Positions 5,162-50,244 of a stretch of 64,000 nt of DNA are shown here, piece after piece (position 1 is the first letter of the stretch; the number at the start of each line of letters is the position of its first letter). A model generated the notes under the pieces. That model was not told the DNA's origin. It saw nothing but the letters and a program-made list of their open reading frames with translations, and did no database searches. Source of the stretch: Sneathiella sp. HT1-7 (GTDB lineage Bacteria; Pseudomonadota; Alphaproteobacteria; Sneathiellales; Sneathiellaceae); assembly GCF_020731145.1 (NCBI RefSeq), contig NZ_JAJFZN010000003.1:434001-498000 (forward strand), in the 5' to 3' direction. A program made the translations under genes and the position numbers.

Positions 5162-5171
5162 TTGTCTTTAT

Positions 5172-5189: not shown

Positions 5190-5217
5190 TTGTTGTCAAC
5201 GAATTCAGGAGATAAAT

Positions 5218-5820: not shown

Positions 5821-5970
5821 CTAGGAGGGTAGAACAAATTTATAGTGCATGATTTAGGGTAACCGAAAATAACCTTCATGTGGTTATATCAAATGTAGAT
5901 TAGCACAAAAATACCATATGATTGAATGTATGCTTGCCTAAATACGCTTTTTGGATAAATAATTCTAAAT

Positions 5971-6669
5971 ATGGAAGAATTTGAACCAATCCCTGGAAAT
6001 CTTTGTAATTGGGCAAGCCGGCGTGCCGAGGATTTAACTAAGCGCGCAATGAACGGGGCTTTATATCAAATAGAATTGGATCAGTTTCAAAATCGTGTCA
6101 TTTCTCTGAGTAATATGTACCGCAATGAAAATGAGTATTCGGAAGAAATAGTCCAAGATGCCATAAATGCGGAACTTCGATTAAAGGGTTATCTCGAGCA
6201 AATATTCAAAACTAGAGAAAATAGATCAAATTGGCTTCAAGATATTGAGAATAGCTTATCTCACAATCTTGTTGTTCTGAGGGAAACAGGTCAACAAAGC
6301 ATTAAATATGTACTGCTTGGATATGGTGTTGTGTTTATTACTCTTTTTGGCACTCTATTTTCTCAGAAAATTAACAATGAATTTTTCCCAGCCATTTTTT
6401 ATGCATTAAAAGTTTTCGCGTTTGGTTTTTCGCTTATTATTGTTGGCCTTTCCATAACTCATGTAGCGACTCGACTGTTGATAGAAAACTTAAATGTTCT
6501 TAAGCGTAGCAATAATATTGACAAAGACCGAAAGCCTTGGATTTTCAAAATGAGCTTGATAGGAGAGTCCCTAATAATATTGTCTGGGATTTTTATAATT
6601 ATTGGTATTTTGGTGTTTGTTTTTCAATCTAGTAATATTTACTTAATAAATATTCAAACGCCCAAATGA
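5971..6669 (+). CDS. Hypothetical AT-rich membrane protein
   Basis: 232 residues, not recognised. The first ~105 residues are soluble and largely helical with many charged residues. Three hydrophobic segments follow: about 109-128 (YVLLGYGVVFITLFGTLF), 138-165 (FYALKVFAFGFSLIIVGLSI) and 195-222 (ESLIILSGIFIIIGILVFVF). Base composition is far more AT-rich than the neighbours, which suggests recent transfer. It sits beside the tRNA-Pro remnant at 6817-6893, which fits a recombination hot spot. Function unknown. Confidence 0.65.
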   Translation: MEEFEPIPGNLCNWASRRAEDLTKRAMNGALYQIELDQFQNRVISLSNMYRNENEYSEEIVQDAINAELRLKGYLEQIFKTRENRSNWLQDIENSLSHNLVVLRETGQQSIKYVLLGYGVVFITLFGTLFSQKINNEFFPAIFYALKVFAFGFSLIIVGLSITHVATRLLIENLNVLKRSNNIDKDRKPWIFKMSLIGESLIILSGIFIIIGILVFVFQSSNIYLINIQTPK

Positions 6670-6816
6670 TATCATTTATCCAAAACCTAAGCTAGATTGT
6701 GAAGCATATATTAGTTTAAGGTGTGGGCTCATAAGCGTCAGATACAATTTCTTTGTATAAATGCCTATGCGACTAAGTTCTATAATTATACGATATTATC
6801 AGTATATAAAAGAAAA

Positions 6817-6893
6817 TGGTCGGGGTGAGAGGGTTTGAACCTCCGACCCCGTCGTCCCGAACGACATGCGCTGCCGGACGCGCTGTGACATTG
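6817..6893 (-). pseudogene. Decayed second copy of tRNA-Pro(CGG)
   Basis: Reading on the minus strand, about 60 bp from the encoded CCA end through the T-arm and anticodon arm match the intact tRNA-Pro at 7834-7910, with only a few transitions. Homology then fades through the D-arm and acceptor 5' strand, so no cloverleaf can close. The copy lies in the same orientation 1,017 bp away and brackets a PAP2 phosphatase gene. It may be a relic of site-specific integration into the tRNA 3' end or a decayed tandem duplicate. Confidence 0.75.
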
Positions 6894-6948
6894 CTGACGC
6901 GATTGCTCACCAACGCCTAATGTTAAAATGACACGAAATTACACCGCA

Positions 6949-7665
6949 TCAATTCTGAAGCCATCTGCCTTTGGAAAGCCGGCTCTTGAACACCAGAAAA
7001 TGCAAACTACAGACAATTATCCAGCTTAGCAGCATTGTGACGAGGGTATGAGAAAGAAAATGGCGGCCATTGAGCATCTGATAGCCGCCCATGACCCATC
7101 CGGCAGTCATCGCTGCAGCAATGACCATAATCATCCGTTTCCTCGTTCGAGCCAAGGGTACGAAAAGGAGAAGTGCGAAGCCGGCGGAGGCGTGACCTGC
7201 GGGAAAACACTTGCCGCTATCGCTCAAATCTCCCCTTTCAAAGGGCTGTAGATGTGGTTTTGTTCCACCATATTCCGTTAGCTGATAGGGGCAATATACG
7301 TCGGTAATCTTTTTCCCGATGCCTACGGTTAGCGGGACAAGAATGGCGCACAGGATAATGAAAAGATATTTGCGCTTGCGAAACCTTGCAAAAGGTCTGA
7401 GGACAAAGGAGAGCATGAACAATATGCAGAGGCCGCCCCCATAGGTGATTAATAGCCATCTTGGGAGATTATAAAAGAAAAACCGTGGAACCGGTTGATT
7501 TGCATCGATAATCCAAGCAGCGCCGTCAAAAAAATGATTTGAAATATGAAAATCAAGCCGAGCGACGTCAAAAACAATGACCACAAGGATGAGGAGGATG
7601 GCTGAAATCGACAGCTGATATCCGGTATTAAGGCCAAGGCCTGATTCTTGCGTTCCATTTTCCAT
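6949..7665 (-). CDS. PAP2-family membrane phosphatase
   Basis: 238 residues with about six membrane helices. The phosphatase motifs are present: KKITDVYCP near 118-126, FPAGHASAGF at 154-163 (the PSGH-type motif with His158) and GRHFLSHTL at 200-208. This pattern is found in inner-membrane PAP2 enzymes acting on undecaprenyl pyrophosphate or lipid A phosphates, with the active site facing the periplasm. It lies between the tRNA-Pro gene and its decayed copy, so it may have arrived by integration there. Exact substrate not determinable. Confidence 0.82.
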   Translation of the reverse strand: MENGTQESGLGLNTGYQLSISAILLILVVIVFDVARLDFHISNHFFDGAAWIIDANQPVPRFFFYNLPRWLLITYGGGLCILFMLSFVLRPFARFRKRKYLFIILCAILVPLTVGIGKKITDVYCPYQLTEYGGTKPHLQPFERGDLSDSGKCFPAGHASAGFALLLFVPLARTRKRMIMVIAAAMTAGWVMGGYQMLNGRHFLSHTLVTMLLSWIIVCSLHFLVFKSRLSKGRWLQN

Positions 7666-11444: not shown

Positions 11445-12338
11445 ATGGCGGGTAATCTGGCCTCCGCGCCGTCCAATTCCTTTCAGGATCTGATCCTGAC
11501 CCTACAACATTTCTGGTCATCGAAGGGCTGCGTTATCTTGCAGCCCTATGACATGGAAGTGGGCGCCGGAACGTTTCATCCGGCGACGACCCTGCGCGCA
11601 CTCGGCCCGGAGCCGTGGAAAGCCGCCTATGTGCAGCCCTCGCGCCGCCCGACCGACGGCCGCTATGGCGAGAACCCCAACCGCACGCAGCATTACTACC
11701 AGTTCCAGGTACTCCTGAAACCGTCCCCGGATAACATTCAGGAACTCTATCTTGAAAGCATCTATGCCCTCGGGATTGACCCTAAGAACCATGATATTCG
11801 CTTTGTCGAAGATGATTGGGAAAGCCCGACCCTGGGCGCCTGGGGCCTCGGCTGGGAAGTCTGGTGCGACGGGATGGAAGTGAGCCAGTTCACCTTCTTC
11901 CAGCAGGTCGGCGGCTATGAATGCAGCCCGGTCTCCGGCGAACTGACCTACGGGCTTGAACGTCTTGCCATGTATGTGCAGGGCGTCGATCGCATGTTCG
12001 ACCTGAAATGGAACAGCGAAGGCGTCACCTATGGCGATGTCTTTCTGCAGAACGAGAAGGAATTCTCCGCCTATAATTTCGAGCATTCGAATGTGGATAT
12101 CCTGCTTCGTCATTTTGAGGATGCGGAAGTCCAGTGCCAGGAGATTCTGGCCGAGGGGCTTGCGCTGCCGGCCTATGACCAATGCATGAAGGCGAGCCAT
12201 CTTTTCAACCTTCTCGATGCGCGCGGCGTCATCAGCGTGACTGAGCGCGCCGCCTATATCGGGCGGGTGAGGGCGCTTGCCAAGGGCTGCGCGACGGCCT
12301 GGCTCAAGGGCCGCGGACATCTGGCGGAGGAGGCATAA
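11445..12338 (+). CDS. glyQ: Glycyl-tRNA synthetase alpha subunit
   Basis: About 297 residues from ATG 11445 (a GTG at 11430 would add five). The catalytic subunit of the bacterial alpha2beta2 glycyl-tRNA synthetase. Conserved blocks are visible: [13 protein letters not shown] at the start, [56 protein letters not shown] and [12 protein letters not shown]. It ends next to glyS with adjoining stop and start. No clear ribosome binding site precedes either start, so the exact N-terminus is uncertain. Confidence 0.96.
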
Positions 12339-14396
12339 ATGGCGGAATTGTTGCTGGAGCTTTTCTCCGAGGAAATCCCTGCGCGCATGCAGAACAAGGC
12401 GGCGGACGATCTGGTTCGCTTGGTGAGTGCTGGGCTGAAAGACGCCGGACTCGCATTCGAAAGCGCTCGCGGATTTGCGACGGCGCGGCGCCTTGCGCTT
12501 GTTATTGATGGCTTGCCGGTCGCTCAGCAGGATACGTCAGAGGAACGGCGTGGCCCCCGTGTCGGCGCCCCGGACAAGGCAGTGGAAGGTTTCCTGAAAT
12601 CCGCCGGGCTCTCCCGTGATCAACTTGAGGAACGCGAGACGGAGAAGGGCAGCTTTTACTATGCTGTGATTGAGAGTAAAGGTCGGTCGACGATTGAGGT
12701 GCTGCCTGCGCTCCTGAATGCGGCGATCTCCGCCGTGCCCTGGCCGAAGCCGATGAAATGGGGCAGCTACACCGCCCGCTGGGTGCGTCCGCTCCACAAT
12801 ATTCTCTGCCTGTTTGACGGCAAGACGGTCCCTTTGAGCTGGGAGCATCTGACGGCCAATGACCAGACCTTCGGTCATCGCTTTATGGCACCGGCGGCAA
12901 TTTCTGTGAAGGATTTTACCGATTATCGGGCGCGGCTTAAAACCGCCTATGTTGTGCTGGATGCCGCAGAGCGCGCGAAGATTATCGCGGCGGATGCGAC
13001 GCGGCTGGCTGTGGATGAGGGGTTGACCCTTATTGATGATCCGGCGTTGCTCACGGAAGTTGCGGGCCTCGTCGAATGGCCGGAAAGCCTGATCGGCTCG
13101 ATCGATACCAGCTTCCTTGAAGTGCCTCAGGAGGCGTTGATTTCTGCTATGCGCAGTCATCAGAAGTATTTCTCTCTTGCCGGGCCGGATGGCAAAATGG
13201 CCCCGCGCTTTATCGTGGTGGCGAATTTGCGTGCGGAAGATGGCGGCAAGCTGATCACCGCAGGGAACGAGCGGGTCCTGAGTGCGCGCCTGTCGGACGC
13301 GAAATTCTTTTGGGACAAGGATCGCGAAAAAAACCTTGAGGCCCGCGTACCCGATCTCGACAAGATCATTTTTCATGCGAAGCTCGGCACGGTGCGGGAT
13401 AAAGTTGAACGGATCATTAAGCTGACCGCAGAGATTGCGCCCTATGTGCCGAACTCTGATGCCGATATGGCAGCACGGGCGGCCTTGCTTGCGAAAGCTG
13501 ATCTCAGCACCGAAATGGTGGGTGAGTTTGCCGATTTGCAGGGGTTGATGGGCCGGTATTATGCGGCACATGACGGGGAGAATGAGGCCGTCGCGACAGC
13601 CATTCAGGAGCATTACTCCCCGCTCGGTCCGAACGATACATGCCCGTCCGAACCGACAAGCGTTATCGTTGCGCTCGCGGACAAGATAGATACCCTTACC
13701 GGCTTCTTCGCTATAGATGAAAAACCAACTGGATCTAAAGACCCATATGCGCTTCGCCGCGCAGCTCTGGGCGTGATCCGTTTGGTGCTGGAAAACAACC
13801 TGCGCCTGCCACTCTTGGAGATTTTCGAGAAATCAGGGGCGCTGCAATCAATACAGGAAACACTCAACGCGGATGAGCTACTCGCCTTTTTTGCCGACCG
13901 GTTGAAGGTGCATCTGAAAGAGCAGAATATCCGCCATGACTATATCAGCGCCGCCTTCGGTGAGGGGGGGGAAGACGATCTCGTCCGTCTGATGGCGCGG
14001 GTTGAGGCACTCTCAAATTTCCTCGGCTCCGATGATGGGGCGAATTTGTTGATTGCCTATCGCCGTGCGGCCAATATCCTCCGGATTGAGGAGAAGAAGG
14101 ACGGAACCTCCTATGACCAGCCGGTTGATGAAAGCCTGCTGGAAGACGGGGCGGAGAAGGCCCTGCATGAACGTATGCATGAAGTTTCTAACCTTGTTTC
14201 GGGAGCGATTTCTCATGATGAGTTTGAAGCGGCGGGAACAGCGGCGGCGGCGTTGCGCAAACCCGTCGATGCTTTCTTCGACAAGGTGACGGTGAATGCT
14301 GATGACGCGGCACTCCGGGCGAACCGGCTCCGGCTTCTTTCCACAATCCGCAATCTTTTGGACCAACTCGCGGATTTATCGAAAATAGAAGGCTAA
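12339..14396 (+). CDS. glyS: Glycyl-tRNA synthetase beta subunit
   Basis: 685 residues, usual family length. It begins [18 protein letters not shown], the classic GlyS N-terminus, and contains [45 protein letters not shown]-like sequence and a C-terminal HD/anticodon-binding region with [15 protein letters not shown]. The beta subunit binds the tRNA. It follows glyQ directly and precedes ppdK by 78 bp. Confidence 0.96.
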
Positions 14397-14474
14397 TTTT
14401 TACTTTTTACGCGTATGAGCATCTGTATGACTCTAAAAAGTGAGTGAATTTAACATCAGAAGGGCGATATCGAG

Positions 14475-17153
14475 ATGACGAAGTGGGTATATTCTTTTGG
14501 CGATGGCAAGGCGGATGGCACAGCGGAGATGCGTAATCTGCTGGGCGGTAAGGGTGCGAACCTGGCAGAGATGAGCAATCTTGGCCTTCCGGTACCGTCG
14601 GGCTTTACCATCACGACGGAAGTCTGTACGGCCTTTCTGGAAAATAATGAGATCTATCCCGATACACTTGCCGGACAGGTTGATGCGGCGATTGCCGAGA
14701 TTGAAGATTCCGTCGGCGGCGGTTTTGGTAATGCGGAAAAACCGTTGCTGGTGTCGGTACGCTCCGGTGCGCGGGCGTCGATGCCGGGTATGATGGATAC
14801 GGTCCTTAATCTCGGACTTAATGATGAGACTGTGAAGGGGCTGGAGGCACAAAGTGGCGACAAGCGCTTTGCCTATGACAGCTACCGCCGCTTTATCCAG
14901 ATGTATTCCGATGTCGTGCTCGGCGTGGATCACTATCATTTTGAAGAACTTCTCGAAGTTTTGAAAGAAGAAAACGGCTTTCATCTCGATACCGATCTCG
15001 CGGCGGATGACTGGGAAAAGCTCGTCGGGCAATATAAACAGAAAGTTGAAGAAGAACTCGGCCGACCATTCCCACAGGATGTACAGGATCAGCTCTGGGG
15101 TGCCATTGGCGCCGTGTTCAGCTCCTGGACGAACCAGCGTGCGATCACCTATCGCCGCCTTCATGATATCCCGGCAAGCTGGGGCACGGCCGTCAATGTA
15201 CAGGCAATGGTTTTCGGTAATATGGGGGATGACAGTGCGACCGGCGTCGCCTTCACTCGCGATCCATCTACGGGTCAGAAGATCTTCTACGGTGAATTCC
15301 TCGTGAATGCGCAGGGCGAGGATGTGGTTGCGGGTATCCGCACACCGCAGAACCTGACCAAGCAATCGCGTCTTGATGCGGGCTCTGAGGCCCCATCTAT
15401 GGAGGAGGTCTTCCCCGAAGTTTTTGCCCAGCTTGTTGAGGTCTATAAAAAGCTCGAAGCGCATTATCACGACATGCAGGATATCGAGTTTACCGTCCAG
15501 CAGGGCAAACTCTGGATGTTGCAAACCCGGTCTGGCAAACGCACGGCGAAAGCGGCGCTTAAAATTGCCATCGACATGGTGAACGAAGGGCTTATCGACA
15601 AGAATGAGGCGATCAAACGCATTGATCCGGCCTCTCTCGATCAACTCCTGCATCCGACGCTCGACCCGGCTGCGGAACGCAATGTCATTGCACGTGGCTT
15701 GCCGGCGAGCCCCGGGGCCGCCTCTGGGCAGATCGTCTTTAATAGTGATGAAGCGGAAGCCCTCGCGGGCGAAGGAAAATCCGTCATTCTGGTTCGTATT
15801 GAAACAAGTCCCGAAGATATTCACGGCATGCATGCGGCGAAAGGCATTCTCACAAGCCGTGGCGGCATGACCAGCCATGCGGCGGTTGTTGCGCGCGGCA
15901 TGGGCCGGGCCTGCGTCTCAGGTGCGGGATCGCTCAATATCGATTACAAGAACGAGACACTGAGTGTGCTCGGCGAAACCTATAAAAAGGGCGATATCGT
16001 CACCATTGACGGTGGCAGCGGCGAGGTGATGCTAGGCTCGGTCGATATGATTATGCCGGAACTGTCCGGGGAGTTTGGTGAGTTGATGTCCTGGGCCGAT
16101 GAAATCCGCCGCATGAAAGTGCGCGCCAATGCGGAAACGCCGCTCGATGCGGAAACCGCGCGGAAATTTGGTGCGGAAGGTGTCGGCCTATGCCGGACCG
16201 AACATATGTTCTTCGATGCGGAGCGGATTGTCTCCGTTCGTCAGATGATCCTGTCTGAAACAATAGAGGAACGGCGGGACGCGCTGGCCAAGCTGCTCCC
16301 TTATCAGCGCGGTGACTTTATCGAGCTGTTCCGCATCATGGCGGGGCTGCCGGTGACCATCCGGCTTCTCGATCCGCCGCTCCATGAATTCCTGCCCAAA
16401 ACGGATGAGGAAATCGACGATCTGGCCAAAGCACTTGGTGCGGAACCAGCGAAACTGCGTCACAGGGCGTTACAGCTTCATGAGTTTAACCCGATGCTCG
16501 GCCATCGTGGTTGCCGCCTCGGTATTTCTTTTCCGGAAATATACGAGATGCAGGCCCGCGCGATCCTTGAGGCCGCCGCGGAGGTTAGCAAGGAACTTGG
16601 CGCGACTGTGATTCCCGAGATCATGATTCCGCTGGTCGCTACAGAACGTGAGTTGGAAATCCTGAAAGACAAAATTAAGGCTGTTGCCGACGCGATCCAT
16701 GACGAGACCGGCAAGGAGATTGAATATCTCATCGGCACGATGATCGAGCTGCCACGCGCCGCACTCCGGGCGGGGGATATCGCGAAAGAGGCTGAGTTCT
16801 TCTCCTTTGGGACGAATGACCTCACCCAAACGACCTATGGCATCAGCCGGGACGATAGTGGCTCCTTCCTGGAAGATTATGTGAACCAGGGGATCTATGA
16901 AACCGACCCCTTTGTTTCCCTCGATCAGGAAGGCGTTGGCGAACTGGTGCAGATTGCTGTCGATCGTGGCCGCGAGACGCGTGCCGATATCAAACTCGGC
17001 ATATGCGGTGAACATGGCGGCGATCCGGCCAGTATCGATTTCTGCGAGCGGGTTGGCCTCGATTATGTCTCCTGCTCTCCTTACCGTGTGCCGATCGCAC
17101 GCCTTGCGGCGGCTCAGGCTGCGCTGGGATTACTGCGGGTCTCCGAAGCCTGA
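14475..17153 (+). CDS. ppdK: Pyruvate, phosphate dikinase
   Basis: 892 residues. Interconverts pyruvate, ATP and phosphate with phosphoenolpyruvate, AMP and pyrophosphate. Domain order is as expected: N-terminal ATP-grasp (GGKGANLAEM, SVRSGARASMPGMMDT), central swivelling phosphohistidine domain (TSRGGMTSHAAVVARGMG, with His in the TSHAA block) and C-terminal PEP/pyruvate TIM barrel (GLCRTEHMFF, GTNDLTQTTYG, KLGICGEHGGDP). Position after glyQS is common in alphaproteobacteria. A Rho-independent terminator follows. Confidence 0.97.
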   Translation: MTKWVYSFGDGKADGTAEMRNLLGGKGANLAEMSNLGLPVPSGFTITTEVCTAFLENNEIYPDTLAGQVDAAIAEIEDSVGGGFGNAEKPLLVSVRSGARASMPGMMDTVLNLGLNDETVKGLEAQSGDKRFAYDSYRRFIQMYSDVVLGVDHYHFEELLEVLKEENGFHLDTDLAADDWEKLVGQYKQKVEEELGRPFPQDVQDQLWGAIGAVFSSWTNQRAITYRRLHDIPASWGTAVNVQAMVFGNMGDDSATGVAFTRDPSTGQKIFYGEFLVNAQGEDVVAGIRTPQNLTKQSRLDAGSEAPSMEEVFPEVFAQLVEVYKKLEAHYHDMQDIEFTVQQGKLWMLQTRSGKRTAKAALKIAIDMVNEGLIDKNEAIKRIDPASLDQLLHPTLDPAAERNVIARGLPASPGAASGQIVFNSDEAEALAGEGKSVILVRIETSPEDIHGMHAAKGILTSRGGMTSHAAVVARGMGRACVSGAGSLNIDYKNETLSVLGETYKKGDIVTIDGGSGEVMLGSVDMIMPELSGEFGELMSWADEIRRMKVRANAETPLDAETARKFGAEGVGLCRTEHMFFDAERIVSVRQMILSETIEERRDALAKLLPYQRGDFIELFRIMAGLPVTIRLLDPPLHEFLPKTDEEIDDLAKALGAEPAKLRHRALQLHEFNPMLGHRGCRLGISFPEIYEMQARAILEAAAEVSKELGATVIPEIMIPLVATERELEILKDKIKAVADAIHDETGKEIEYLIGTMIELPRAALRAGDIAKEAEFFSFGTNDLTQTTYGISRDDSGSFLEDYVNQGIYETDPFVSLDQEGVGELVQIAVDRGRETRADIKLGICGEHGGDPASIDFCERVGLDYVSCSPYRVPIARLAAAQAALGLLRVSEA

Positions 17154-33992: not shown

Positions 33993-34180
33993 GCCTTTCT
34001 GCTTAATCCATTTTCTTCTTTTTTTGGCTCTTTTTTGAGAATTCTCTCGGTTGGGGTAAGTAATTATCCTAAGTCAGGATGATATATCTGCATATTTACC
34101 AATATTTATTCACAAGACTAAAATAAATACGTCTCCTTATTTCTTGGTTTTACTTAATGAATAAGGAAAGAAAATTCATC

Positions 34181-37054
34181 ATGTCAAGCAACACGAACGC
34201 TGTTGATTTTAAAAATGCGCCAAACGTACCGAGTTCAGTGCAAGCGCTGATTCAGCTAATGAAGGATGATGGCGACAAAGCTTCAAACGCTTATTATTGC
34301 AATTCATATAAATTGTTCAAAAAATTAAAGAAAAATGTGATCCCTCCATCAAACGAGAATAAGCTATTTGGGAAAGCTAACCCAGCCTATAACAATGCTG
34401 CTCAGAAATATGCAGAGCAAAAAAATGTAACTATTAAAGATCTAAAAATTAATAACCCAAATGATAACGACATTCTTGTGGGCTTGATGGTTACCTGCGC
34501 GGAAGCGATTTTTAATCCAGACGTGGAATTAAAAAAAGACAAGAAAGTTAATCCCAAATTGGTAAAACTGGATCGGCTTTCCTTCCAGATTGTCGAGGAT
34601 TTCAAATGGGTTATTTGGCAATCGAAATTCGAGACAGAAAAGTTCGTGGAATACAAGAGCCTAAAAAATGCGCGTCTGGCGCAAGAAAAGCGACTGATGT
34701 CAAATATCCGCGCGCGGGATATAAAAAATGCCTTTAAGCCGGAACTAGATATATTGCGGGAACCGCAACTTAGATACTCGCTGGAAGCATTATTCCAATA
34801 TTGCTTTGCCGAAGCTCAGAAAATTACCTTTGAAAGAAATTATGTTTTCAATTTAGACTTGAACGAGGTTGCAAATCCAAAAACAACAAACAATAGGAAT
34901 CCACAAATATATGATCGGTTTGCGGATAATCTTATTTCTGTAGTTGATCAGGTATTTACTGCGATCTGCCTTGTTAATCCGAAGGAAAATTTCATCAAGC
35001 AATGTGAATATGAAGCTATCAACGATCTGCTTATGGGTAGTCTGCACCGTCTTGATCCGACGATCGGCGATGCCGGTTGCCAGTTCCGCATTCCGATGGT
35101 TCTAGATTCTCATGAGGCTCTCGTAAAAAAATTTATGAGCGATAATGCAGCCAAGGAAACTATGTTGGCACTCGGCGAATATTATCAATATCTGGCAACG
35201 AATAGCCGCCTGGACACCATGTGCTATATGGCGCGGAATCATATTGAAGATCCTATAAAGACTTTCGTGAATATTTATAAGGAGTTTGACATCAATTGGA
35301 ATGAGGACGAGGAGAAAACCGATAACAGGCCCGGTAACAAAAATCTGGAAGTTAATATTAAATGGCAGGGTCCAGACTATAGCAGATTCAAATATTTCGA
35401 GGCGATAGATTTGGACAAAATTCCAAATTATAAAAAACTCTATAACAAAGTCGTGGAATATATTTCAAAGCTTAACGAAGTGGATGTGCGAGGGTTTAGT
35501 AATTCGTTAGAGATTAAAAACAGTCACCAAGTTCCATTTGATGATTCTTTCAATGAAATCAACGGGGAGCAGGCACATTATCTAAACTCCAAGAACGAAA
35601 AGCGTAGCATCCGTTCACCAATTGCGTTACGGGCGCTTACTCTTTGCAAGGCGCTTACTGTTCGCCAGCTCCGTTGTATGGATCGTTTTTGTCTTCCCAG
35701 CCATGATCCCAGCCTGGATTTACCGTTTTGTGATCTCAGTGATATGAGTGAGTTGAAAGCGGAAATGGCGTGGTACTCTGTTGCCTATCTGACTAACTCA
35801 TTCAGAAATATGGCTTATTCTAAATATGCCGAGGACATGACGGGTTATGAACACACGGATGATAAAATTCCGGAAATGGCCTATCATCTGACGGACACAT
35901 TGGAATCGACCCGGTTTTATTACAGGGCAGATACAGCCAAAGGTCTGGCAATAGACAATTACGAGAACAGACGTCTCCTCTATATGTACTGTTTTGTACG
36001 GGGATGGCCGATCGTTGTCGATCTGAAGCGGATCCAGTGTACGTCAGGGGATAAGGCTGAGATTGGGGTATCCGTCAAAAGTAGAAACAATTCGAATAAT
36101 AGTGAGCGCAAGAGAGTCAGTATAGTTGATGCGTCCTACGAAGTTCTTGGCCGCGAAGTATTTTGCTTCATACCTAACAAGAACACCATGACATATGACT
36201 ATGTCCCGGATAATGAAGTCAATGACTGGGGCAACAAGCCCGCCCTGACATATGAGGGATACAGTATGTATAACCCGGCAACGGACAAAACGGATACGGA
36301 CATTGCCGAGGCCACAGATTTTGAAGATTTCAAGAAGCTGTTCTTAAAGAAGTATGACATCTTCGACATGATGTTTATCGCCGCCCATTCCCACAAATCG
36401 TTTCCATCCAATTCGATACGACCAAATGGTTATGAAATTTATGGCAATGAAGCAACGCAGAATGCTGATGAAAGTCTTCAAGCTAGGCCTGTCTCGCGGA
36501 ATGAAGACGAGATGAACGAACTTGCAGCAACTCAGCCGCTTGCTTCAAATAACACAGCGTATACTAGCGTTCTCAGGGAAGAGAGTACAGATGCTGACAG
36601 AGTGACCGTTTATGATAAAGCTCTTCAGTTCACTTGGGACAGATATGTAGGTAACGATGATGTCGAAGAGATCAATGACGATTCTGATAATTTCGATATT
36701 TACGGGTCCTGGGATGAAGATAATAAATTGAGGAGCCCGCTTCCCCTGTTCGGTAACCGTCTTGATGGCAAGACCTGGACTATCATGGAGGAACAGAAGT
36801 CACTCAAAAAACTTGATTCCAAGGTAGGGTACACAAACTACGCATACCGCGCACGCGCGGACCAGAACCAGACAGAAGATGTGCGTATTCGCACGGACAG
36901 CACCTATGTTCTGGCGTCCATTCACATGTATGGGTGCACCTATAATGCCAGAAAAGAAAATCATAAAGTTTTCTGGCAAAACTGGGGTCAAGAAAAACTG
37001 AAAACCCGAGTGATTAACGATGATCCAAAAGAGAGAACCGTGTTGATCTATTAA
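34181..37054 (+). CDS. Large hypothetical protein, no family recognised
   Basis: 957 residues from ATG 34181, which has AAGGAAAG about 10 bp upstream; an in-frame ATG at 34157 lacks a ribosome site. I recognise no domain. There is no signal peptide, no clear membrane helix and no repeat array. The first ~330 residues are Lys/Asn-rich and AT-rich in DNA; the later part is more acidic (DDVEEINDDSDNFDIYGSWDEDN). The C-terminus (KERTVLIY) is hydrophobic, loosely like type I secretion signals, and the next gene is a likely type I secretion substrate, but this is weak. It stands alone, bounded by tandem terminators downstream. It could be foreign DNA. Confidence 0.75.
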   Translation: MSSNTNAVDFKNAPNVPSSVQALIQLMKDDGDKASNAYYCNSYKLFKKLKKNVIPPSNENKLFGKANPAYNNAAQKYAEQKNVTIKDLKINNPNDNDILVGLMVTCAEAIFNPDVELKKDKKVNPKLVKLDRLSFQIVEDFKWVIWQSKFETEKFVEYKSLKNARLAQEKRLMSNIRARDIKNAFKPELDILREPQLRYSLEALFQYCFAEAQKITFERNYVFNLDLNEVANPKTTNNRNPQIYDRFADNLISVVDQVFTAICLVNPKENFIKQCEYEAINDLLMGSLHRLDPTIGDAGCQFRIPMVLDSHEALVKKFMSDNAAKETMLALGEYYQYLATNSRLDTMCYMARNHIEDPIKTFVNIYKEFDINWNEDEEKTDNRPGNKNLEVNIKWQGPDYSRFKYFEAIDLDKIPNYKKLYNKVVEYISKLNEVDVRGFSNSLEIKNSHQVPFDDSFNEINGEQAHYLNSKNEKRSIRSPIALRALTLCKALTVRQLRCMDRFCLPSHDPSLDLPFCDLSDMSELKAEMAWYSVAYLTNSFRNMAYSKYAEDMTGYEHTDDKIPEMAYHLTDTLESTRFYYRADTAKGLAIDNYENRRLLYMYCFVRGWPIVVDLKRIQCTSGDKAEIGVSVKSRNNSNNSERKRVSIVDASYEVLGREVFCFIPNKNTMTYDYVPDNEVNDWGNKPALTYEGYSMYNPATDKTDTDIAEATDFEDFKKLFLKKYDIFDMMFIAAHSHKSFPSNSIRPNGYEIYGNEATQNADESLQARPVSRNEDEMNELAATQPLASNNTAYTSVLREESTDADRVTVYDKALQFTWDRYVGNDDVEEINDDSDNFDIYGSWDEDNKLRSPLPLFGNRLDGKTWTIMEEQKSLKKLDSKVGYTNYAYRARADQNQTEDVRIRTDSTYVLASIHMYGCTYNARKENHKVFWQNWGQEKLKTRVINDDPKERTVLIY

Positions 37055-40890: not shown

Positions 40891-40968
<78 letters not shown>

Positions 40969-41958: not shown

Positions 41959-42651
41959 ATGGATAATTGGGAAGTATGGAAGAAGGGTATCCCGCTTGAA
42001 AAGGCGCATATCCATTTTGGAGATCGAGAGAAGGTTGAAGCCTTTAATCGATACAGAAATCAAACAACCATGATGGATGTTATAACTCGTATCGAAGCAA
42101 ATGCTGATAGGGGATTGGAAGGCTTTGATATTTTAAAAGGCGTCGTCAATCCGGATGCGGAGAGAAGGAAGAAGACAGACAACCTAAATCGGCAATTAAA
42201 AACCGAGTTCTTGCAGAATATTAAAGCTGGTTTGTTGTTCGCGTATGGATTTTCTGTTCCGAGGAGAGCTGACGAGACACCGCAGGCAGTTCCCGACGAT
42301 TTATGGGATGTATACCCTTATTCGTCTGGAAATGTATTGAAATCTAAAAGCCTGAAAATGGAATCCATTCGGGTGCTACATTTGAATAGCTTAAGGGGAA
42401 CTGACGCAGTTCCTCCTAAAACTGCAGGCAGGCCAACCCGGCAAGAGCATATTATCGAGGCATTCGAAACTCTGGCTGATCAAGGGTTGATAGATTTTTC
42501 TCGATCAGCATCGGAATGTTATGAGCTTGTGCGTCTGTGGGTTCTCAAAAATTACCCTGATCCGGAAAACAGTGATAGCGGGCTAAGTGTCAAAGCTATG
42601 GAAAAGCACGTAAATCCGATGTTCAAGCGCTATAAAAGTTCCTCCCTATAA
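41959..42651 (+). CDS. Hypothetical protein, possibly element-specific regulator
   Basis: 230 residues, not recognised. Mostly helical and charged (EKVEAFNRYRN, AERRKKTDNLNRQLKTEFL), with a C-terminal part (TRQEHIIEAFETLADQGLIDFSRS...LRSAMEKHVNP-like) that could form a winged helix or replication-associated domain. It lies immediately upstream of the AlpA-like gene, and repeats at 42641-42691 overlap its 3' end. The upstream gap (41722-41958) holds a repeated CGTTA(C) stretch near 41780. Confidence 0.6.
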   Translation: MDNWEVWKKGIPLEKAHIHFGDREKVEAFNRYRNQTTMMDVITRIEANADRGLEGFDILKGVVNPDAERRKKTDNLNRQLKTEFLQNIKAGLLFAYGFSVPRRADETPQAVPDDLWDVYPYSSGNVLKSKSLKMESIRVLHLNSLRGTDAVPPKTAGRPTRQEHIIEAFETLADQGLIDFSRSASECYELVRLWVLKNYPDPENSDSGLSVKAMEKHVNPMFKRYKSSSL

Positions 42652-42745: not shown

Positions 42746-42994
42746 ATGACTCAAACCAATATCAAAGAAAACTCTGCGGATATTAACGACGGCCTGATCA
42801 ATGAAAAGCAGGCTGCCGAGTATCTCGGCTACACGGTGCGTGCCTTGCAGAACTGGCGCGTGCGGGGCGGCGGGCCAAAATTTGTGCGGATTTCGCCGCG
42901 CTCCATTCGCTATCGCCTTCGCGATCTGGACGCATGGATTGATGAGCGCACGGTTGCGAGTACTTCGCAGCCTTCGCCGTATCTCGCGGGTTAG
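42746..42994 (+). CDS. AlpA/excisionase-like helix-turn-helix protein
   Basis: 82 residues with a GGAGG ribosome site. The MerR-like winged helix NEKQAAEYLGYTVRALQNWRVRGGGPKFVRIS...IRYRLRDLDAWIDERTV matches the HTH_17/AlpA family. Such proteins act as excisionases or activate integrase expression in prophages and satellites. The repeats upstream may be its sites. It precedes the Rep gene by 172 bp. Confidence 0.88.
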   Translation: MTQTNIKENSADINDGLINEKQAAEYLGYTVRALQNWRVRGGGPKFVRISPRSIRYRLRDLDAWIDERTVASTSQPSPYLAG

Positions 42995-43166: not shown

Positions 43167-44324
43167 ATGGAAATACAGAATTTATATGCGGGGTTTGACA
43201 CTCTCGAAGTCTCGTTTCAGGGAGCACTCCCCAAGGAAACTTTGATCGAACTGGCGGAAGCAAAAAAGATCGCCGTTAAAAATCATGAGAACGAACTGAT
43301 CACGATTGGACCGGGCGAGATCGAAGGGCATGTTGGTGAAAGTGGAATGAAGGGCGGTTATGCCTTCACCTTCGGCACCGGGCCGCTAGGCGAGCTATGG
43401 AGCTTTAAAGACAACGCCAATCCCAGTGAATGGAATATAGGAGTAAAGGTCTATGCTGAGGCGCTTGCAGCCTATTCTTATTGGGAAATAAAGGAGCGGT
43501 TATACCAGCGATTAAAAGATATGGGCTGCACCTATGGCAAGGAAAGCCTTCGGCGCGTCGATTTCGCCATGGATTTTCTGATGCCTGATACATTTAGTAT
43601 CTCTACTGAGCAATTCGTGGTGCACCACCGCTCGAAAATATCTCCATATCTCAAATTTGAAGAGGAATATTACGATACTGGCAAGAGTGATGGCACCTAT
43701 GTGTTTAGTGGAGGGAGGATAGAGACCGTAACTGTGGGGAAAATGCCGGGACGTCAGGTATGCGTTTATGACAAACGAAGAGCGGCTATTAGTCTCGGTA
43801 AACTGTTCTGGTTCACATTATGGCGTATTGACCCGAAAGATAGAACAAAGAATGTCTGGCGGGTCGAGCTGCGCGCTGGAAAAAAGGAGTTAAAAGATCG
43901 TTGGAGCATCCGAACCTTTGCCGATCTTGAAAATTCCATTGGCGACGTCTTCGTCGAAATGGCCAATAAAATTCGCTATCACGACGAAATCCAGACCGAC
44001 GCCAATGTAACCCGCCAACGGCAGCACCCTTTGTGGGATGCCGTTCATGAGGTTCTTGATCGCAATTTGACCGACTACCGCTCCGGCCTCCTGCCAAATC
44101 AAGTGAAAATGGTTGTCGCAGAAGAACAGCGAGAGATTTACATAACTCAAATAATGGGTCTGGTTGCTGGCATTGCTGTGATTGATGGTCTTGAAAAGGA
44201 GGAGATACTAAACATCTTGCCTTCGCAAGTGGCTGATATAATAGCTGGCCGGGTAGGTGCCCCGAATACGAAATTTTTTGAAAGCGTAATTAGAGCTCAG
44301 AGAAGGCTCCTATTCATAAATTAA
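43167..44324 (+). CDS. Rep_trans-like replication initiator or MobT-type relaxase
   Basis: 385 residues, GGAG ribosome site. It has the layout of Rep_trans-family rolling-circle initiators: LRRVDFAMDF (129-137), VTVGKMPGRQVCVYDKR (188-204, with candidate catalytic Tyr201 in YDK) and WRVELRAGKKELK (231-243). Family members start rolling-circle replication of small plasmids and filamentous phages, or act as MobT relaxases in integrative elements. GC-rich hairpins upstream could be its origin. The remainder (about 260-385) is helical. It converges on the 930-residue protein gene. Confidence 0.7.
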   Translation: MEIQNLYAGFDTLEVSFQGALPKETLIELAEAKKIAVKNHENELITIGPGEIEGHVGESGMKGGYAFTFGTGPLGELWSFKDNANPSEWNIGVKVYAEALAAYSYWEIKERLYQRLKDMGCTYGKESLRRVDFAMDFLMPDTFSISTEQFVVHHRSKISPYLKFEEEYYDTGKSDGTYVFSGGRIETVTVGKMPGRQVCVYDKRRAAISLGKLFWFTLWRIDPKDRTKNVWRVELRAGKKELKDRWSIRTFADLENSIGDVFVEMANKIRYHDEIQTDANVTRQRQHPLWDAVHEVLDRNLTDYRSGLLPNQVKMVVAEEQREIYITQIMGLVAGIAVIDGLEKEEILNILPSQVADIIAGRVGAPNTKFFESVIRAQRRLLFIN

Positions 44325-44383: not shown

Positions 44384-47176
44384 TTATTCAAAGCTATTGA
44401 GGATATGCCTTGGACGTTCTTCTCCTCGTTTGGCGTATTCACTTACAACGTCTCTTGCGATACGATCTCCTTCCTTCCCACTTTTGACCAAGTTTTTCAA
44501 TAAAGCTTCAATAGGTTCAATTGGGTAGCACGCAGCAGAGTTTCTTGAAAATTCTAGCCAAATTTCTCCTGACTTGATTGGCTGATCGTTACTTAGTCGT
44601 GACAAGCTTTTTAAAAACTCGTGCGAATTAAAATCATATTCGGCATATCTAGCGAGCGTTAAAAGGAAGCGATAGGAGTTGTCGTCTATGTTTTTTATAA
44701 AGACTGTCCATTGACTCAAACTTGAAGCCAAAGATTTTCCGTCTTTGCTTTTAAAGTCAATTTTTTCATAGATAAGCGGCCATAATTGATGGACCTTTTC
44801 GTGTATCTTTGCGCTATCTTCTTTTCGCAAAATCCATAGGAACCAAATTAAGTGCTTAGTAAGTGGAGAAAATTTCCCACTTACTAAAATAGAAATTAAG
44901 CTATCGTCGCTCTCCAGTTTCTCAAAATCATTGATAAAAGCATACGCAACATACTCAACCGCTGTTTTCTTTAATTCATGTCTAAATTTTGAATTTTCAA
45001 TAATACGTTTTAACACCCCCGTATCTCTCAAATATTTGTAGGCTTCTTCATAAACACTATTAGAATGAAAAAGACCATCGATTGCGCAATGCCATTTTAA
45101 TTCATCTTTCTGATTAAAAAGTGTGCTTAAGTTTTCAATCAACCATTCTCGAGACATATAACGAAAATTTGGATAATACATTGCAATCAAGGTGGCAAAT
45201 TCACAGTTTCGGGATTTTAAGCCACTATCATAGTATGATCTGAAATGTGCCCAAGCGGCGGTATGGTCGCCATTATTTTGTTTATTTTCTAATCTACAGC
45301 TTCTTAGCGACAGGTTTATTAATGCCTCTACACATTGTCCAAGAGGGCTATTTATGGCAATTGATACCGCGTCGCTTTCTTGTTTAAAATTTTCACCAGC
45401 CTGCTTTTCGAAAATAATAGCAAGGATATTTTCAACTGAACTATGAATTGATTCTGGAAATGCGTGGGCGTCAGATTTTGCACCTGCCTCGAAAAGCCTA
45501 CCAATTGCACTAACGATCCAGTTTTTGTTAGCAACAAATTTTTCCTCTGAAACACTATGCTCGCCTGACCAGAATTCGTCTGACTTCACTAAACTTTCGA
45601 TGAAGTTCACTAAATTCTTCCATACTTCATCCCAAGGGAGACTAGCTTTTTCTCCCCAAAGTTCATCATAGGCTTTGATGATGGAATAAACATAAGGCAA
45701 CTTCAAACCATAAAATGCTCGGAGCTGTGAATAATATCTTGAGGGTTCGGTCTTGATCAGTTCTTCAAAAGCTTTGGATAACCCTTCTACGTCGGGAGAT
45801 TCCCACTCTTCTGTTCCTTTAAAATTATTTAGTTTGAGAACTAAGTCATCCAAATCAAGAGATTTGAGTTCTTCTACAGAAAAGGGTGAGTTGTGAACTC
45901 TCCAGCCACTTGTCATGTAACTGGAGAAATCTGGGTGGTCAGGTTCCGTTTTTGCAATCGAGATTGCTTGCTGATATATGGACTCTTCCCTGTCACCAAA
46001 CTCTCTAATCGCAGAAAGCCAAATAGCCTTGTGATAGGCAGTGGCGCCTTCCTGTATGACACCGTCGTCCCGTATTTCTATTTCGTCAATTATTCTTAAG
46101 ACTTTCTCTTGCTGCTTATCGTCGAGCCCAGGATAGCGATTTTTCAAGAACCACCACATTTCGTGGCGATAATTACTGCTAAAATATTGGCTATCAATTA
46201 TCCTGTCAGAGAGTGTTTTTTGAAGATTTTGGGAGGTTCCAGCAAAATATATGGCAGCTCTTTTAATTGTTTCGAATGGAGAATCTAGGAGTTTCGTTAT
46301 CATTTTCTTCGAATGGTCTGAGTTTTGATCAAGATAACCTTTCAAGCAATCGCGAAGTCCAAATAACAGAATATTTTCGGGGCTATCTTTATACTTATTT
46401 TGCTCGTGATCCTCTATTGCTGGATGCCAAATAGAAGACCATCTGTCATTTCCAAGTTCAGTTAACGCTTTTTCTAAATTTGATTGAAATACTTTGACTG
46501 CTTTAAGTCCAATAGTGTTTCCAGCAAGCCCTGATAATTTATTTTGAATTTCTCCCATACGATGCTCGTCAGCGAGAAAAATAGATTCTTTTATTGTATC
46601 GTTAGCAAATTTTTTTTCAGTAAATTCGACATTAAACAAAATCTCTAACAATCGTGTTGCCAGATTTAACGACTTTTCAGTTTTCTCTTGAACAAGTTGC
46701 AATAGCCAACGCTCACCAATTGTTTTGGTGACCAATCCGGCCTCTGCTCTATCAGAAAGCCAAAACTGTATCGCTTTCAAGAATCCCGGTTTAACAAATT
46801 CAGTTGGGATACTGAGTAAAATTTCACTGAACTGCCACCAAACTCGATAGTTACTAAATCCATGTTTTTGGGCATATCTTGTGGAATTTTGGATTATCTC
46901 TATTATTTGGGGAATGTATTTTGATTTTTCTTCCTTGGGAATGTTAGGGGTCAATTTTCCGAGATAAATCATCGCTTTCCAGCTCGGTATTGTTACGTAA
47001 CCTTCCTTATTAGCTGGAATAGGAGCCGGAATTTTATCCGCGTCGAAATACCCCTTTTCCTTGAGTGGAATGAACCATTTTAAATTGCTAATTTTGGAAA
47101 AAAACGCATCTTGCAGTTCCTGATTTTCTTCTATTCGTTTGATTAAATCTACTTCTTTAAAATTGAGATTATTCAT
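44384..47176 (-). CDS. 930-residue helical protein partnered with SIR2 protein
   Basis: 930 residues, clearly AT-rich. No catalytic motif seen; the sequence looks all-helical, like HEAT/ARM-type repeats, throughout. The C-terminal ~180 residues (from about SLISILVSGKFSPLTKHLIWFLWILR to the end) may correspond to DUF4020, a domain found with SIR2; this is a tentative recollection. Its ATG overlaps the SIR2 stop (ATGAATAA) and is preceded by GAGG, so translation is coupled. In SIR2 defence proteins such as DSR1/DSR2 a long helical region senses the phage and the SIR2 part depletes NAD; here the two would be separate chains. Role inferred. Confidence 0.75.
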   Translation of the reverse strand: MNNLNFKEVDLIKRIEENQELQDAFFSKISNLKWFIPLKEKGYFDADKIPAPIPANKEGYVTIPSWKAMIYLGKLTPNIPKEEKSKYIPQIIEIIQNSTRYAQKHGFSNYRVWWQFSEILLSIPTEFVKPGFLKAIQFWLSDRAEAGLVTKTIGERWLLQLVQEKTEKSLNLATRLLEILFNVEFTEKKFANDTIKESIFLADEHRMGEIQNKLSGLAGNTIGLKAVKVFQSNLEKALTELGNDRWSSIWHPAIEDHEQNKYKDSPENILLFGLRDCLKGYLDQNSDHSKKMITKLLDSPFETIKRAAIYFAGTSQNLQKTLSDRIIDSQYFSSNYRHEMWWFLKNRYPGLDDKQQEKVLRIIDEIEIRDDGVIQEGATAYHKAIWLSAIREFGDREESIYQQAISIAKTEPDHPDFSSYMTSGWRVHNSPFSVEELKSLDLDDLVLKLNNFKGTEEWESPDVEGLSKAFEELIKTEPSRYYSQLRAFYGLKLPYVYSIIKAYDELWGEKASLPWDEVWKNLVNFIESLVKSDEFWSGEHSVSEEKFVANKNWIVSAIGRLFEAGAKSDAHAFPESIHSSVENILAIIFEKQAGENFKQESDAVSIAINSPLGQCVEALINLSLRSCRLENKQNNGDHTAAWAHFRSYYDSGLKSRNCEFATLIAMYYPNFRYMSREWLIENLSTLFNQKDELKWHCAIDGLFHSNSVYEEAYKYLRDTGVLKRIIENSKFRHELKKTAVEYVAYAFINDFEKLESDDSLISILVSGKFSPLTKHLIWFLWILRKEDSAKIHEKVHQLWPLIYEKIDFKSKDGKSLASSLSQWTVFIKNIDDNSYRFLLTLARYAEYDFNSHEFLKSLSRLSNDQPIKSGEIWLEFSRNSAACYPIEPIEALLKNLVKSGKEGDRIARDVVSEYAKRGEERPRHILNSFE

Positions 47177-48101
47177 CTTTTAAAACCTCATCCAGATAGT
47201 CTAACTCATCAACGAATGGAGGAGCCTTAATTTTTATCTCACTAACCCATGATTTAATATTAGTTGCTAAACCTTGGTAATCTTCAAAATCTCTAGCAAA
47301 CCCAAGCAAATGAACGCCAAAGCTTTCTTTGTAATAGTTTGAAAGTTTGTTGAAGAGAGGTTCTTGGCTTTTGAAGTATCCTTGAATTGCGAAGTAACGT
47401 CGATCACTTGTTTTGCTAGCTCGCCCTTTCCTTAAAATGTATTCCAATATTTCAGCTTCTTCCAATCCGTATCCCAGAAAAAGTACTATTTTTCTCTCAA
47501 ATAATTCACTAAGAAAGCCTTTTATATTATCGTCTTCATAATGGTCTAAATAATCTTTGGTCGTAACAACCATTGTATCCTGATCTTCTATTGATCCATG
47601 CAGATGAACAACAGTCCCGGGTTTGTTCAAGAGGTTAGGAAAAATCTTACTTTTTTCGTAGATGCGGCTTATTTCGGCGGCAGTTTTGGAACCATCCGAC
47701 TCTTCTATAAACTGCGGCGCTAAGTAAGTATCATAATTTGTGGTTACGCAGGCACATCCCAATTTGTTGATAAATTCGTATACGCCATGCGCTTTCTTTT
47801 TATCTTGTTTTAAATATTGGGCGAGATTCAAATCATGACGTTTTTGGTTTGCAATTATTTTTGATATTGAAAGCTTTTTTTTAGCATCTAAAAATTTTAA
47901 TTGATCTTTTTCTGAATAATCAATCAAGTTTTTATCGCAGAGGTCATTTAGGGCAAAGTCAGCTAGCTCATCCCATGAAGGCAATCCTAATAATCTTGAA
48001 ACACCAGCACCTATAAAAAGAATTAAGCTACCGCTTAATGCGGCATCGTTAATTTCATCGGGTACTGGTATATCTTTAAATAGACTCATACCATTCGCCA
48101 C
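47169..48101 (-). CDS. SIR2-fold (SIR2_2) protein, candidate NADase effector
   Basis: 310 residues. The NAD-binding fold of SIR2 is visible: LFIGAGVSRLLGLPSW (28-43), CVTTNYDTYL (118-127, Asn122), VVHLHGS (164-170, His168) and VLFLGYGLEEAEI (206-218). These match SIR2_2-type domains of defence proteins rather than histone deacetylases; no zinc-binding cysteines are seen. The longest frame begins at GTG 48101, with an ATG four codons in. Downstream gene overlaps by 8 bp; upstream membrane-anchored protein ends 37 bp before. A likely abortive-infection NADase. Confidence 0.85.
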   Translation of the reverse strand: MANGMSLFKDIPVPDEINDAALSGSLILFIGAGVSRLLGLPSWDELADFALNDLCDKNLIDYSEKDQLKFLDAKKKLSISKIIANQKRHDLNLAQYLKQDKKKAHGVYEFINKLGCACVTTNYDTYLAPQFIEESDGSKTAAEISRIYEKSKIFPNLLNKPGTVVHLHGSIEDQDTMVVTTKDYLDHYEDDNIKGFLSELFERKIVLFLGYGLEEAEILEYILRKGRASKTSDRRYFAIQGYFKSQEPLFNKLSNYYKESFGVHLLGFARDFEDYQGLATNIKSWVSEIKIKAPPFVDELDYLDEVLKDE

Positions 48102-48138
48102 GTCATTTGAGGTTTATGCAATAAGCCAGAAACGTATT

Positions 48139-48690
48139 TCATATGCTTTTGAGTTCGTTTGAGATAGATAGTTTTAATTTTTCTGCTTCTTGCTCGACAT
48201 TCTTCAAGGCATCTTGAAATAGCTTTAAAAAGCGAATTCCATCTTCTCCATTTTTGTATGCTACTTTGTGCTTAAACGTAATATTGTTAAGATGTTCACG
48301 AGCGTCTAAAATGGCTTCATATTCTTCTCGAATATTTGGAAAATAAACATCAATCAGCATTTCGATACGCATCAATCCTCTGTTATCGCTGGTACTAGAA
48401 TTGATGGATAGATCAAGATGGTCATTATACGATATTTCGTTATTCATGACTTTTATTAACGAAATGTTATGGGAAAACAAATTGTTAGCCCAAATAGCCG
48501 TAGTTTCAAATAGTTCTTCGCCTCGACTTCTCAATAAGCTCAGGTGTTCGGCTTCGCTTTTAAGATCAAACTGTTGGGAAATGGCCCTTAAGCTGGCTCT
48601 GGTTGACATATATGTGCCCGCGAGAGTGAAGAAGCCGACTGATGCTGATGAAATTAAAGCTATTAAAACAGTATTCCAAAAATCATCCAT
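48139..48690 (-). CDS. Membrane-anchored coiled-coil protein in the SIR2 operon
   Basis: 183 residues, AT-rich. One N-terminal membrane helix (TVLIALISSASVGFFTLAGTYM) followed by a helical soluble domain with heptad-like stretches (LRAISQQFDLKSEAEHLSLLRSRGEELFE and LKNVEQEAEKLKLSISNEL). Not a recognised family. It is upstream of the SIR2 gene on the same strand with a 37-bp gap, so it is probably part of the same operon. It might anchor or trigger the SIR2 pair at the membrane, or be unrelated cargo. Confidence 0.65.
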   Translation of the reverse strand: MDDFWNTVLIALISSASVGFFTLAGTYMSTRASLRAISQQFDLKSEAEHLSLLRSRGEELFETTAIWANNLFSHNISLIKVMNNEISYNDHLDLSINSSTSDNRGLMRIEMLIDVYFPNIREEYEAILDAREHLNNITFKHKVAYKNGEDGIRFLKLFQDALKNVEQEAEKLKLSISNELKSI

Positions 48691-48757: not shown

Positions 48758-49900
48758 TTAAAATTTACCGTACATTTTATTGGCAGCTTCCCGCAACGGA
48801 TCATCGGCTAAATGCGCGTAACGTTGGGTCGTTTGTGGCTGGGTATGGCCTAGGAGTTTTCCTACGATAGGTAACGATACGCCACTTGATACAAGATGCG
48901 AGGCAAATGTGTGTCGGAGATCGTGGAGCCGCACGTCTGGCAGATTGGCGGCGGCGCGCACCTCATCCCAGAAGCGTTTGATTTCTGTCACCGGTTGACC
49001 GGCCCTTTTGCCGGGGAAGGCGTATTCCCCAATTTCTGGTTGGCCGTCTCGCCAGTCTGTCATGATACGTATCGCGTCATCTGATAGGGGGACATATTCC
49101 GTTCGTTTCTGCTTGGTGGTATGAGCGGGTTTTGTCCATACGGCGCGCTCAAAATTAAAATCCTCCCATTTTGCAGACATTAATTCACCCCGCCTTGCGC
49201 CTGTAAGGATCAACATTCTTACGATGGTAACGGCGCGTTCGTTCGGGTGGTTTTCGAGAACAGTGGCAAGTCTTTGAAGTTCACCCTCTGATAGCCAACG
49301 GTCTCGCTTCTGCTCCTGAAATTTAGGAATACCGGTTACCGGGTTCTTGTCTGACCAACCCCAATGACCGGCGAGATTAAACATCTTTGATGCGAGTGCG
49401 CGGACACGGTTGGCGCGATAAGGGGTCTCCCGCAGTTTCAGGATAATCTGTTCTAAATCTCGTTGGCGGATATTCTGTACCTTCAAATTGCCAAGTTTCG
49501 GCAGAAGGTAATTATCCAGCATGGACTGGTCATCTTTAACCGACTTTGGGCGTTTGTTCGGGAGGGCATGGCGCTTGATATAGTCTTCCGCAAGATGCGC
49601 GAAAGTGGGAGCCTTACGTTGCTGTTGCCGATCTTCTGCCGGGTCTTCCCCTTTCGCGACGTTACCAAGCTCGATACGGGCGCGCTGCCGCGCCTGATCT
49701 GCGGTAAGGGCTCCATGTTTGGCCAAGGTGAGCCGACGGGACCGCCCGTCCTTTCGATACTGTACGAGATAGCTTTTAATACCCGTATGCTTGATCCTTA
49801 GGCCAAAGCCTTTCAACTCACTATCCCAATGAAAAATATCTTTTTCGCCGGGCGAGGGGAGGGCTGCAAGATCAACAAATCGTTTCGTAAGTTTGGGCAT
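48758..49900 (-). CDS. Tyrosine-type site-specific integrase
   Basis: 380 residues from ATG 49900 (CGGAGA 6 bp upstream); five in-frame codons beginning with GTG precede it. P4-like layout: N-terminal DUF4102-type arm-binding domain (KLTKRFVDL...[19 protein letters not shown]), core-binding domain, and catalytic domain with Arg236 (GARRGEL), His326 and Arg329 (HDLRHTF), His352 (LLGHTQ) and nucleophile Tyr361 (TTQRYAHL). It catalyses recombination between the tRNA-Lys 3' end and the element. An inverted GGTAAGC pair lies over its start, which suggests autoregulation. Confidence 0.96.
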
Positions 49901-49916
49901 GTCTATCTCCGGCACT

Positions 49917-50195: not shown

Positions 50196-50244
50196 GACTC
50201 TTAATCAGCGGGTCACAGGTTCGAACCCTGTAGCGCCTACCATT
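50196..50244. repeat. attR: 49-bp direct repeat
   Basis: Identical over 49 bp to 40920-40968. It is a 3' fragment of tRNA-Lys lacking the acceptor 5' strand and D-arm, so it is not a functional tRNA. Confidence 0.95.

Follow-up and report, generated by a model that had tools for sequence, protein, structure and literature searches.

The DNA analysed here is a 64,000-nucleotide (nt) stretch of the Sneathiella sp. HT1-7 genome, referred to throughout as the window, in which three candidate genes lie on the minus strand between positions 44384 and 48690 (Table 1). They encode a SIR2_2 protein of 310 amino acids (aa), a long helical chain of 930 aa (HEL), and a small protein of 183 aa, and all three open reading frames (ORFs) are where an earlier reading of the letters alone (the original prediction) had placed them. 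The genes for SIR2 and its helical partner are separate, as that reading held, and overlap by 8 nt; their frames are one base apart at the junction, both ORFs are intact and constrained, and the overlap is likely to couple their translation. The operon is AT-rich, as had also been stated: its three genes have GC contents of 0.375, 0.356, and 0.362, against 0.469 in the Rep-like gene next to them and 0.518 in that of the integrase. A promoter scan was uninformative (15 promoter-like sites, with 12.8 expected), and a terminator scan returned a 13-pair inverted repeat inside the HEL coding part (44855-44888, minus strand).

Table 1. Features of the SIR2-HEL locus and of the element that carries it, in window coordinates.
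Feature	Position	Strand	Basis or remark
tRNA-Lys (CTT), integration site	40891..40966	+	ARAGORN
Attachment (att) repeat copy 1, 3' part of tRNA-Lys	40920..40968	+	49-nt perfect direct repeat
230-aa backbone protein, no function assigned	41959..42651	+	55.7% identical in sister element L086
82-aa ORF, AlpA-type excisionase/helix-turn-helix look	42746..42994	+	by eye from translation
385-aa backbone protein "Rep-like" (name of convenience)	43167..44324	+	no Pfam or other family match
Helical solenoid chain HEL, 930 aa, predicted sensor and regulator	44384..47176	-	PADLOC Dsr1 PDLC04166 and all-helical HEAT/ARM-like AlphaFold2 model
Overlap of SIR2 stop and HEL start, 8 nt	47169..47176	-	short overlaps likewise in seven other split loci
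SIR2_2 chain, 310 aa, GTG start, predicted NADase effector	47169..48101	-	Pfam PF13289, PADLOC Dsr1 PDLC04166, AlphaFold2 model
183-aa ORF, one N-terminal transmembrane-like stretch, 37 nt upstream of SIR2	48139..48690	-	association not conserved
Tyrosine integrase	48758..49915	-	Pfam PF00589, E = 1.3e-28; PHROG integrase
att repeat copy 2	50196..50244	+	49-nt perfect direct repeat

The 310-aa chain belongs to the Pfam family SIR2_2 (PF13289, E = 3.9e-19), as the original prediction proposed, and is the sole SIR2_2 protein of its genome. The nicotinamide adenine dinucleotide (NAD) motifs claimed for it are legible by direct reading as GAGVS (residues 31-35), TTNYD (120-124), HLHG (166-169), and GYGLEE (210-215), and include the TTNYD and HG motifs required of a DSR1-type SIR2_2 NADase domain. 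N122 aligns with the asparagine of the ThsA TTNYD motif and H168 with His146 of KomC, the residue altered in the solved mutant KomC(H146N); the two are putative catalytic residues. An AlphaFold2 model of the chain (predicted local distance difference test score, pLDDT, 82.2) has its best Protein Data Bank (PDB) matches in KomC, ThsA, and DSR2, and by sequence the best PDB match is KomC (E = 1.2e-11). The helical nature predicted for HEL is borne out by its AlphaFold2 model, an almost all-helical solenoid (mean pLDDT 79.3, predicted template modelling score, pTM, 0.50). Compared with PDB sequences, HEL returns nothing, or one chance match at E = 0.71, and no match to the DSR2 chains, and neither Pfam nor PADLOC gives it an ATPase family match.

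What joins the two chains is a single PADLOC profile, Dsr1 PDLC04166 (1227 positions), on which the SIR2 chain covers positions 6-303 (E = 7.8e-61) and HEL positions 310-1218 (E = 1.6e-120). Because the profile covers both in order, SIR2 and HEL together correspond to one DSR1-type protein cut at a domain boundary. The original prediction had called the combination one it did not recognise, a judgement that falls to this match with DSR1, which it had itself named; the PADLOC call covers SIR2 and HEL, and the 183-aa ORF has no match. HEL is homologous to the DSR1 arm both through PDLC04166 (310-1218) and through a HEL profile that matches canonical arms, while in place of the single polypeptide of DSR1 the window has two overlapping ORFs. 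Canonical fused DSR1 proteins fit the PADLOC profiles PDLC02183 and PDLC04167 far better than PDLC04166, and a SIR2 tree of 40 rows recovers the window clade with support of 99/98 and canonical DSR1 with 100/100. Judged from the sequences, the window pair is a separate branch within the DSR1 family, and it looks like a naturally occurring form of an already known defence family, a DSR1-type protein made as two chains, rather than a new system. We consider it probable that the pair is a two-chain relative of the SIR2-based anti-phage protein DSR1, carried as cargo on a 9.3-kilobase element, with the 310-aa chain as N-terminal NADase and the solenoid as C-terminal arm. A two-chain DSR1 is not reported in the titles or abstract openings of the literature searched, on which alone most papers were judged.

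Seven other loci carry a SIR2 and a HEL gene in the same order, with overlaps of 1-29 nt. These are on a Vibrio coralliilyticus plasmid (L002, whose annotation lists two genes; overlap 8 nt) and in an uncultured Vibrio (L035, 8 nt), Shewanella electrodiphila (L036, 11 nt), Marinicella sediminis (L038, 14 nt), two metagenome-assembled genomes (L037, 1 nt; L039, 17 nt, where HEL runs off the contig), and genome G1067 of the window's class, which holds the closest pair (L106, 29 nt from the first possible HEL start). Because L002 and L035 are almost the same sequence (97% DNA identity), the distinct pairs number seven with the window counted in; among complete pairs L037 is the most diverged, at 27/26% identity for the two chains. 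The DNA match between the two Vibrio copies takes in both genes with 182 nt before and 119 nt after them, the L035 contig ending 75 nt further upstream, and both chains are constrained (nonsynonymous over synonymous divergence, dN/dS, 0.0055/0.076 and 0.017/0.060).

These loci bear on whether the window merely holds an ordinary single-chain DSR1 gene that a frameshift or faulty assembly has disrupted, a thought encouraged by the usual one-chain form of DSR1, by the existence of broken-looking canonical genes (genomes G495 and G354), and by two frames that are one base apart at the junction. A local frameshift or assembly error is ruled out because the split recurs in other loci and the Vibrio chains are constrained; the cut falls at the same domain boundary in all seven, down to the identity of L037, and both window ORFs are themselves intact and constrained. 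A broken gene is thus very improbable, and refuted as far as sequence allows. We give equally little credence to frame slippage in the overlap, by which a fused DSR1-like product would also be made and the split would be partial. The offset is the same (overlap equal to 2 modulo 3) in six of the seven loci checked, namely the window, L002, L035, L036, L038, L037, and L039, but it differs in L037. Counting back from its first possible start, the HEL frame meets a stop at 1-2 codons in six of these loci and at 10 codons in L039.

A fused relative is present on a viral contig (L054), where one ORF contains SIR2 (residues 19-324) and, at 336-508, the start of HEL, followed by a frame break and the contig end. 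The fusion point is the same domain junction at which the other loci are split, and the fused ORF matches PDLC04166 across it (18-488 on 15-474, E = 8.8e-76). L054 lies inside a clade with 98/98 support together with all but one of the eight split pairs, and the approximately unbiased test does not reject that all eight arose once (p-AU 0.153). The genes upstream of it look prophage-like by eye, most without a profile check.

DSR1 in several ORFs was also seen elsewhere. Three DSR1 copies lie close together in G495 (L042 and L098, G495:C1:18000-38000), one as an intact 1242-aa ORF and the other two as two ORFs each, cut inside the helical part (645+618 aa and 705+492 aa), and in G354 (L041) DSR1 is in three ORFs; these multi-ORF genes may be broken or naturally split. 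G342, second-best genome in one of the searches, was set aside, its match being confined to SIR2 and running off the contig.

The 183-aa ORF is of the membrane type that had been predicted, with one hydrophobic stretch near its N-terminus (residues 8-26; Kyte-Doolittle mean of 1.85). It has no relative in Pfam, PADLOC, NCBIfam, or PHROGs, nor in plasmids, phages, viral contigs, 59 related genomes, or 397 other genomes of a phylum sample, and its matches among the ORFs of 109 loci are copies of the window itself. The original prediction had proposed a three-gene SIR2 defence system and had named, beforehand, co-occurrence of the genes elsewhere as its check. A SIR2-type cassette on a mobile element stands, and SIR2 and HEL keep together in the seven other loci, but the 183-aa ORF is not found beside them (L035 shows just 248 nt upstream). 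A true three-gene system, with the membrane protein anchoring a SIR2-HEL complex or acting as a second effector, would suit its position on the same strand 37 nt upstream of SIR2 and its shared AT-rich composition, and a distant HEL-like gene (L107) also follows the gene of a small single-transmembrane protein, the two overlapping at their ends. We regard this as unlikely, given the seven pairs beside which the ORF was not found, among them L106 with two genes alone, its missing relatives in the 397 phylum-sample genomes and 59 relatives, and the lack of similarity between the window and L107 transmembrane proteins (E = 3.1). From these comparisons, the ORF is probably a passenger or local accessory, and the core system does without it.

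L107 (G803:C37:35000-45000, 2222-6706) encodes a full-length HEL-like protein of 958 aa (E = 4.3e-18 to the HEL profile, 1.5e-13 to PDLC04166) with no adjoining SIR2 ORF, flanked by a 169-aa single-transmembrane protein upstream and a subtilase-family protein (PF00082, E = 1.3e-6) downstream, and may be a new defence module with a swapped effector. It is conceivable, if rather doubtful, that the solenoid is an exchangeable phage-sensor module working in trans with different effectors, a SIR2 NADase being the one it drives in the split DSR1-like clade, in which case the membrane ORF of the window would be a second effector or an anchor. Such mixing of sensor and effectors, if true, would follow from the splitting of SIR2 from the arm.

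The mobile setting named in the original prediction is confirmed by the perfect 49-nt repeat at both ends and the tRNA-Lys site. The SIR2 and HEL pair is cargo of an integrative element in the tRNA-Lys gene, 9,276 base pairs from repeat start to repeat start, which contains a 211-aa ORF, the 230-aa, 82-aa, and 385-aa Rep-like ORFs, the three candidate genes, and the tyrosine integrase gene. It has the integrase, the att repeats at both ends, and the variable cargo slot that mark a tRNA-integrated cargo element. In the nearest sister (L086, G406:C238), the 230-aa, Rep-like, and integrase proteins are 55.7, 71.4, and 73.1% identical, and between the Rep-like gene and the integrase stands a type III-A retron (4623-7087; phosphoribosyltransferase, PRTase, E = 5.9e-86, winged-helix protein 3.6e-11, reverse transcriptase 6.8e-136). 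Because L086 holds a retron there, we take this interval to be a cargo slot, which at least one sister has filled with an anti-phage system. Twelve sister-element regions all have the Rep-like gene, and nine an integrase match; L086 is the sole one with the same layout and a recognised defence cargo, most other cargo being unscanned. Of the other cargo ORFs, the few that were scanned (299 aa in L087, with Pfam only; 212 aa in L089; 377 aa in L093) had no clear match to a defence gene. The Rep-like protein has matches in 14 of 60 related genomes, including its own, where it occurs three times (contigs C5, C6, and C8), and it points to an undescribed family of small integrative elements. Outside the element, a second AT-rich stretch (34157-37054, GC 0.36-0.46) contains a 965-aa ORF and has no PADLOC match at E 1e-8.

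Relatives of HEL are rare in the collections scanned. A HEL profile finds one other strong match, that of L106, in 385 genomes of the window's class, and no strong match in 369 genomes from a different class in that phylum, where a single weak one is a canonical DSR1; none of the 59 other related genomes has HEL. Scanning the genome collection with the SIR2 chain alone gave no loci, and a two-row HEL alignment gave five. Viral contigs yielded no relatives with HEL and eight loci with a SIR2 alignment, one of them (L054) with HEL. The plasmid scan returned one record, the phage scan none, and a DNA search of E. coli genomes none.

As cargo of an integrative element, the pair could act mainly on competing mobile elements, or as a module that stabilises the element carrying it, instead of acting on phage, and other SIR2 systems are known to act on plasmids. 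This is quite unlikely: the relatives are spread over a Vibrio plasmid, chromosomal contigs, and a prophage-like contig, which are unrelated as carriers, and anti-phage genes adjoin them in several loci. These neighbours include SIR2-HerA in L002, a type III methyltransferase in L037, a type III-A retron (PRTase and reverse transcriptase downstream of the pair, 12084-14701) and an HNH nuclease in L038, and DrmD-like and methyltransferase genes in L039; the L036 neighbours scanned gave no defence match.

Several observations weigh against the pair as a DSR1-type anti-phage system. The PDB fold matches of HEL are generic importin/PP2A-type solenoids with no DSR2 in the best 50 rows, although an absence among 50 rows excludes nothing. 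The NCBIfam Dsr1 equivalog NF041818 gives 32.7 and 24.8 bits for the two chains against a cut-off of 1400, and we file the pair as DSR1-related because that cut-off is missed by far. The HEL profile matches the arm in just six of nine canonical fused DSR1 proteins examined (E = 7e-5 to 4e-14), and the divergent SIR2 of L039 has an arginine at the H168 position. The L106 pair stands alone between genes for an EamA transporter and a flavin adenine dinucleotide-binding oxidoreductase, ordinary metabolic and transport genes. Lastly, the enrichment of defence genes among neighbours is not significant, either at E <= 1e-8 (PADLOC matches for 11 of 20 neighbour genes of six pairs and 2 of 10 window control genes; Fisher p 0.12) or at E <= 1e-40 (6 of 20 and 0 of 10; p 0.074), and the 20 neighbours were hand-chosen from ORF lists rather than being all neighbours, with those of L106 scanned with Pfam only.

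The two-chain DSR1 relative is nonetheless the reading we favour. It draws on what was observed at these loci, namely the gene structure, the homology of both chains to one Dsr1 profile, the conservation of the split, the catalytic motif, and the mobile setting. We regard the pair as a mobile SIR2 defence pair that is probably functional. By analogy to DSR2 and DSR1, we infer that the SIR2 and HEL chains made from the overlapping genes would most likely join in one complex, in which HEL holds and assembles the SIR2 chains. Before the solenoid has bound some phage component, the SIR2 chain would be kept inactive or would stay unassembled. Phage-bound HEL would then open the SIR2 pocket in trans, leading to destruction of NAD, and phage production would stop by cell death or growth arrest, protecting against the phage. 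The two-chain form makes the link between sensing and NADase directly testable, as each chain can be expressed, mutated, and titrated on its own or exchanged for another, none of which is possible with a fused protein. The fused L054 within the same clade provides a natural comparison of fused and split forms, and annotation rules expecting one 1,200-aa protein may miss such pairs.

Among known SIR2 systems, the pair differs from Thoeris ThsA in having no SLOG domain by Pfam in either chain, and a Pfam scan of eight element and flanking proteins found no SLOG, TIR, or ThsB-type TIR gene. Kongming KomC is likewise a stand-alone SIR2 chain with separate partner chains. The partners of KomC are KomA/KomB-type enzymes, whereas that of the window is a 930-aa solenoid. 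SIR2-HerA (Nezha) is described as a two-gene SIR2 system (PMC11559045), as is the window pair, but neither Pfam nor PADLOC matches HEL to a HerA-type ATPase. For DSR2, the published account describes the SIR2 domain alone as an inactive monomer, and a C-terminal part that senses the tail tube protein, upon which the SIR2 pocket opens; DSR2, and by extension DSR1, is discussed there as a single-gene system whose helical arm senses phage and regulates its own SIR2 domain (PMC10973363). The window type differs from DSR2 in its two chains, and at the sequence level HEL matches no DSR2 chain in the PDB. From canonical DSR1, a single chain reported in a review to stop phage without cell killing (PMC10952713), the window pair differs in being two chains and in falling far below the NCBI equivalog cut-off, while sharing with it the arrangement of a SIR2_2 NADase part ahead of a long helical one, and both window chains are covered by PDLC04166.
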